Source: a virus
IMG/VR virus record: IMGVR_UViG_3300044621_002214
Span: 1 to 20,055 of that record
DNA: 20,055 nucleotides
Reading direction: 5' to 3' (one strand)
Shown one piece after another: positions 16,524 through 16,576 of this stretch. The translations under genes and the position numbers were made by a program. The stretch's first letter is position 1, and every line of letters begins with the position of its first letter. The notes beneath the pieces were generated by a model. The model was not told the DNA's origin, made no database searches, and saw only the letters and a list, made by a program, of their open reading frames with translations.

Positions 16524-16576
16524 AGTTCACTGATGATTCCGTAAGGATGAAACACGGGTAAAACCGTGTATGAACT
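16524..16576 (+). ncRNA. Type I hammerhead ribozyme 2
   Basis: Core CUGAUGA (16530-16536) and GAAA (16549-16552) are present with cleavage triplet GUA (16568-16570). Stem I is AGTTCA (16524-16529) with TGAACT (16571-16576), 6 pairs; compared with ribozyme 1 both strands changed together. Stem II is TCC-GTAA-GGA (GNRA-type loop) above a U-U opposition at the position next to the core (16537/16548). Stem III is 6 bp including A16552-U16569 (16552-16557 with 16564-16569), loop of 6. Cleavage is predicted after A16570, 21 nt before ATG 16592. The U-U pair may lower activity. Confidence 0.86.

Follow-up and report, generated by a model that had tools for sequence, protein, structure and literature searches.

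In mitochondria, polycistronic transcripts are punctuated by tRNAs and t-elements and are cut at these by RNase P and RNase Z. Hammerhead ribozymes between the genes of phages, and the idea that they process transcripts, are already known (PMC3088659; reviewed in PMC6155905). Perreault 2011 (PMC3088659) proposes the processing of long phage transcripts and reports hammerhead arrays that were shown to self-cleave. The same paper uses the N10.1-N11.1 pair as a filter unless activity was measured, not as a strictly defining feature, and describes U10.1-U11.1 as occurring in natural hammerheads and as the best tolerated mismatch. Theta (HDV-like) ribozymes adjoin suppressor tRNAs in gut phages (PMC10879173).

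A stretch of 20,055 nucleotides of viral DNA (IMG/VR record IMGVR_UViG_3300044621_002214, hereafter the window) was analyzed here. A type I hammerhead between genes 4 and 5 (copy 2), probably functional, would split the transcript of a phage replication-type operon, in which two kinds of processing element probably serve interchangeably as punctuation (Table 1). Copy 2 reads AGUUCA-CUGAUGA-UUCCGUAAGGAU-GAA-ACACGGGUAAAACCGUGU-A/UGAACU (16524-16576, plus strand; the slash marks the predicted cut). Stem I (AGUUCA, 16524-16529, with UGAACU, 16571-16576) and stem III (ACACGG, 16552-16557, with CCGUGU, 16564-16569) have 6 bp each, and stem II consists of 3 bp (UCC/GGA) closed by a GUAA loop, behind U10.1 (16537) facing U11.1 (16548). 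With CUGAUGA at 16530-16536 and GAA at 16549-16551, the core agrees throughout with C3 U4 G5 A6 N7 G8 A9, G12 A13 A14, A15.1-U16.1 and H17, the last being A (16570); at N10.1-N11.1 a U-U stands in place of a pair. The parts follow the type I order, the core being surrounded by three stems of which stem I is open. By eye a U-U and two further pairs follow beyond the 6-bp stem I, and no loop-loop or pseudoknot contact between stems I and II could be predicted. Both the minimum free energy and the centroid structure from RNAfold were exactly this hammerhead fold (-15.2 kcal/mol, z -2.8). The preliminary description had proposed a second hammerhead whose stems differ from those of copy 1 in a compensatory way, cut after GUA 21 nt upstream of ATG 16592; sequence and coordinates bore this out, with cleavage itself a prediction.

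A motif descriptor (core, H17, stem II, and stems I and III with 4 bp or more each) matched only copies 1 and 2 in the window, and 0/400 dinucleotide shuffles, on both strands. Searched with Rfam at permissive thresholds, no family reached its gathering score, for ribozymes or for tRNA-like elements: copy 2 scored 16.1 bits with Hammerhead_3 (gathering score 48.5) and copy 1 scored 28.8 bits with RAGATH-1 (56.3). Since the Rfam models stayed under their thresholds, a covariance model was built, seeded with five hammerheads of unrelated phages and rebuilt from 83 matches collected at loci holding other phage hammerheads, with the phage group of the window left out. This model found copy 2 at 16524-16576 (43.3 bits, E 2.2e-12) and copy 1 at 15400-15462 (39.3 bits, E 5.1e-11), the E-values being rough owing to a shortened calibration, and no third match in the window. 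The Infernal search suggested in the preliminary description was strongly positive with the phage-hammerhead model and below threshold with the curated ones. Among these hammerheads of other phages, 321 cells were changed on both sides of a pair, compared with 87 in shuffles (0/500), in an alignment that was fitted to the structure. The stretch 16524-16576 was confirmed as a complete type I hammerhead with predicted self-cleavage.

The covariance model gave a single match in each of the related phages L003, L006 and L007, and none in more distant records; the three close relatives (records of 24, 36, and 70 kb) carry one hammerhead each. All relatives with gene 5 also have the core; the loss of the core from close relatives retaining the genes, named beforehand as a result that would speak against the ribozyme, was not seen. 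Copy 2 is identical (53/53) in L006 and in L027/L007. Exceptional conservation was not supported, as about 40% of the downstream 53-nt windows likewise match L027 without a difference and about 10% are unchanged in all three relatives. The hammerhead of L003 (4475-4531) looks chimeric, its 5' arm resembling copy 2 and its 3' arm copy 1. Because it mixes the arms of both, copies 1 and 2 probably share ancestry or recombine, and the earlier view of two independent copies no longer clearly holds. The L003 hammerhead precedes a 103-aa gene that has none in L007; hence, the hammerhead is needed by no single gene. In IMGVR_UViG_3300047094_001400 (70,472 bp), the portal gene occurs close to each end (L257, L259), which suggests a genome of about 66 kb that is probably circular or permuted. 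Annotated phages gave no DNA similar to the ribozyme or the TLS1 region and no match to the portal protein, and ParB, searched in genome contigs for a host, gave no match.

The U-U beside the core had been regarded as the one blemish of copy 2, to be compared with related genomes for a pair. It is present, and no pair forms in the relatives with the same ribozyme (L006, L007), where it is unpaired and kept identical; the L003 hammerhead has a G-C pair at 10.1-11.1, with C17. The U·U together with A17 recurs in at least seven other phages, which makes it a variant and not a defect. A17 was found in 9/9 phage hammerheads with U10.1·U11.1, versus 3/28 with other 10.1-11.1 combinations (Fisher p = 1.8e-6), counts per hammerhead that ignore kinship among the scanned phages; collapsed by phage, the association was 8/8 versus 3/19 (p = 7e-5; the 3/19 tallied by hand). 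The test set was the scan in which H17 was free, and the scan restricted to A17 was excluded, since A17 is fixed there. All scans demanded CAC ahead of the UGA of the core and C15.2-G16.2, and other hammerheads are therefore undersampled. Loci L020, L036, L140, L141, L143, L146, L147, and L238 contain phage hammerheads in which U10.1-U11.1 is always accompanied by A17. The U·U is thus a known, tolerated natural variant, which marks a type of hammerhead and does not exclude it; both the U-U and A17 are expected to lower activity. The link between them appears to be undescribed in the available part of Perreault 2011 (PMC3088659). It offers a starting point for understanding how the active site of hammerheads can accommodate a purine where cleavage occurs, and a reason for annotators to keep such hits.

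Table 1. Features of the operon and gene orders in the window and its relatives (HHR, hammerhead ribozyme; TLS, tRNA-like element; g, gene).
Feature	Coordinates	Strand	Remarks
Gene 1, 143 aa	14962-15393	+	3' boundary: hammerhead in the window, tRNA-like element in L276/L277
Hammerhead ribozyme 1 (G10.1-C11.1, C17)	15400-15462	+	Predicted cut between 15456 and 15457, 22 nt before ATG 15479; descriptor and covariance model
TLS1	15927-15980	+	7-bp acceptor, 3-bp hairpin with GG in the loop, T-arm (TTCAATC loop), G-CTAAC; without anticodon arm
Gene 4, 173 aa	15999-16520	+	PHROG 10310; upstream of ribozyme 2
UAA stop of gene 4	16518-16520	+	3 nt before stem I
Hammerhead ribozyme 2, type I	16524-16576	+	U10.1-U11.1 mismatch, A17; predicted cut between 16570 and 16571
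A-rich 21-nt leader	16571-16591	+	Left on the downstream mRNA after predicted cleavage; from sequence, 5'-OH presumed
Gene 5, 64 aa	16592-16786	+	First gene past the predicted cut
ParB-like gene	16792-17586	+	Downstream of the predicted cut; proposed processed unit
DNA polymerase sliding clamp (DnaN-like) gene	17614-18807	+	Proposed downstream processed unit
TLS2	18820-18874	+	After dnaN; anatomy of TLS1, TTCGATT loop, A-CTAAC
Further tRNA-like elements	L006 4532-4584; L276 8194-8242 and 4778-4831 (-)		Gene boundaries of the same operon
Order, window			g1-HHR-g2-g3-TLS-g4-HHR-g5-parB-dnaN-TLS
Order, L006			237aa-TLS-65aa-85aa-70aa-TLS-g4-HHR-g5-parB-66aa-dnaN-TLS
Order, L007/L027			g103-70aa-TLS-radC-like-HHR-g5-parB-dnaN-TLS
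Order, L003/L073			136aa-HHR-g103-70aa-TLS-parB-dnaN-TLS
Order, L276/L277			g1-TLS-three small genes-parB-...-radC-like-dnaN-TLS

In the second kind of element in the operon, of about 50 nt, a 7-bp acceptor is combined with a 5-bp T-arm, whose 7-nt loop reads TTCRANN, and with NCUAA at the end; the linker of TLS1 and TLS2 contains GG and measures 17-19 nt. Besides TLS1 and TLS2, a third kind was detected in L006 and a fourth in L276/L277. In the alignment of these elements 97% of the cells were paired and changes on both sides occurred in 9/12 pairs, values reached by 0/500 shuffles. The acceptor stacked on the T-arm is that of a tRNA; a full cloverleaf with anticodon arm and CCA is lacking, and ARAGORN found no tRNA. 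TLS1 and TLS2 are thus tRNA-like and not tRNAs, and the nearest Rfam tRNA match, to TLS2, was a weak tRNA-Sec whose ends coincide with those of the element. The tRNA-like elements and ribozymes are confined to this operon, also in the 70-kb relative. No convincing tRNA-like element was found in other hammerhead phages with model R3, and the mixture of the two is accordingly seen only in this phage group.

The hammerheads of the group lie in gaps between genes. The upstream stop is 12 nt before the core in the window and L006, 7 nt before it in L007, and inside it in L003. The genes that end there (gene 4, a radC-like gene, and a 136-aa gene) are unrelated; since the stop nevertheless lies beside or inside the ribozyme, the ribozyme fills the intergenic gap. 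The name radC-like is our assumption, taken from inspection of the protein sequence alone. Among 72 phage hammerheads surveyed, an ORF of at least 40 codons starts within 60 nt past the cut in 61, compared with 30% of random positions (p = 5e-22), and the distance from cut to ATG is mostly 14-46 nt. The upstream stop begins 8 nt before C3 in 17/65 of the phage hammerheads and is the UGA inside CUGAUGA of the core in 14/65; these two commonest positions share one reading frame. Many phage contigs (loci L012, L034, L036, L147, L186, L216, L235, and others) hold 3-5 hammerheads within a few kb, each copy placed between a stop and a start about 20-40 nt downstream, with the UGA of the core often serving as the stop of the upstream gene.

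Genes are swapped between hammerheads and tRNA-like elements across five phages. BLAST synteny blocks between relatives start or stop at the elements (15916, 15994, 16517, and 18814), and the gene5-parB-dnaN unit is bounded by the second hammerhead and TLS2. The gene 1 protein is 73% identical between the window and the distant relatives L276/L277. That a tRNA-like element takes the place of a hammerhead at a homologous boundary argues, on comparative grounds, that the function under selection is the cutting of the message at that point. A possible control or origin region of the window, at 13400-14900, separates divergent gene sets, lacks any long ORF, and includes short direct repeats (GGACAGAAAGTGTC at 13411 and 13443; ATGAAAAGTTGGGG at about 14069 and 14129). 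A strong hairpin between A and T runs (AAAGAAACCCAGGCTTTAATTAGCTTGGGTTTTTTTG) at 19767-19802 is likely a terminator that closes the operon and may serve both strands.

The most likely role of the elements is the co-transcriptional punctuation of a polycistronic mRNA. The RNA would fold as RNA polymerase passes and then cut itself after GUA (16570/16571). The upstream product would be an mRNA that has two hairpins with a 2',3'-cyclic phosphate at its end, and the downstream product a gene5-parB-dnaN mRNA with a 5'-OH and the short A-rich leader. At the other boundaries of the operon the same task would be performed by the second hammerhead and by the tRNA-like hairpins, the latter cut by host RNase P and RNase Z, whose ability to recognize elements that lack an anticodon arm is suggested by the acceptor/T-arm geometry. 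The gain would be segments with separate stability and translation. Being portable and carrying or abutting stop codons, the elements would also be convenient borders of cassettes.

The main rival to punctuation as the primary role, with which it is nonetheless compatible, is this border function itself: the ribozyme and the tRNA-like hairpins could be recombination linkers or passengers, with cassettes exchanged at short shared gene-end sequences and cleavage incidental. The exact coincidence of synteny breaks with the elements, the chimeric L003 hammerhead, and the different genes that flank the same element in different phages are all in its favor. It is nevertheless unlikely, given that the compensatory changes preserve pairing in both classes, which a linker would not need, that one type of boundary is occupied by two unrelated RNA structures, and that many unrelated phages have hammerheads at the same position between stop and start. 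It is rather improbable, too, that the hammerhead is a switch with conditional cleavage, its folding controlled by the translation of gene 4, a ligand or a protein: the upstream gene and the exact position of its stop vary among relatives while the ribozyme is constant, and no sensor domain or conserved extra sequence was seen around it. This reading draws on the upstream stop, which lies in or beside the ribozyme both in this group and in the majority of phage hammerheads; stem I and the core would be covered by any ribosome that halts at 16518 or inside the core.

That the sequence is a chance or decayed resemblance, and inactive, might be argued from the U-U beside the core and from Rfam scores far under the curated thresholds. 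The E-value of the independent model (2e-12), the recurrence of the U-U with A17 in other phages, and the place of U10.1-U11.1 as a natural and best tolerated mismatch in Perreault 2011 (PMC3088659) make this very improbable. The presence of two hammerheads 1.1 kb apart in the window recalls retrozymes, in which such pairs excise and circularize the intervening segment. We give this hardly any credence and rejected it, since the close relatives carry one copy; in addition, no RtcB-type ligase was found in five records of the group.

With punctuation preferred over these alternatives, a broader reading can be formulated, which in our judgment is evenly balanced between right and wrong: a mitochondria-like punctuation by interchangeable self-cleaving hammerheads and anticodon-less mini-tRNAs (cut by host RNase P/Z), swapped at homologous boundaries and delimiting gene cassettes, together with an active-site variant in which U10.1-U11.1 is coupled to A17. 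What this study adds is the coupling of U·U with A17 and a punctuation by mixed, interchangeable elements, with priority not certain, as the literature search lay outside most subscription papers and preprints. The purpose of hammerheads in phages has been a standing question since 2011, and the replacement of one element by another makes it directly testable.

As in the tRNA punctuation of mitochondria, elements with an acceptor and a T-arm lie between protein genes at mRNA boundaries; those described here differ in that they are about 50 nt long and without an anticodon arm, belong to a DNA phage, alternate with hammerheads, and are putative processing sites. With the phage and prophage hammerheads of Perreault 2011 (PMC3088659) the present ones have in common the core, the three stems, the type I topology, the occurrence of several per operon, and a site between small phage genes close to start codons. 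Unlike these, the array of the window also includes tRNA-like elements, and its copy 2 falls in the U-U/A17 subset. The theta ribozymes (PMC10879173) likewise combine a self-cleaving ribozyme with tRNA-derived RNA in phages. Their fold differs, and each is joined to a genuine tRNA that serves in recoding, whereas in this operon the mRNA boundaries marked by a ribozyme are distinct from those marked by a tRNA-like element.
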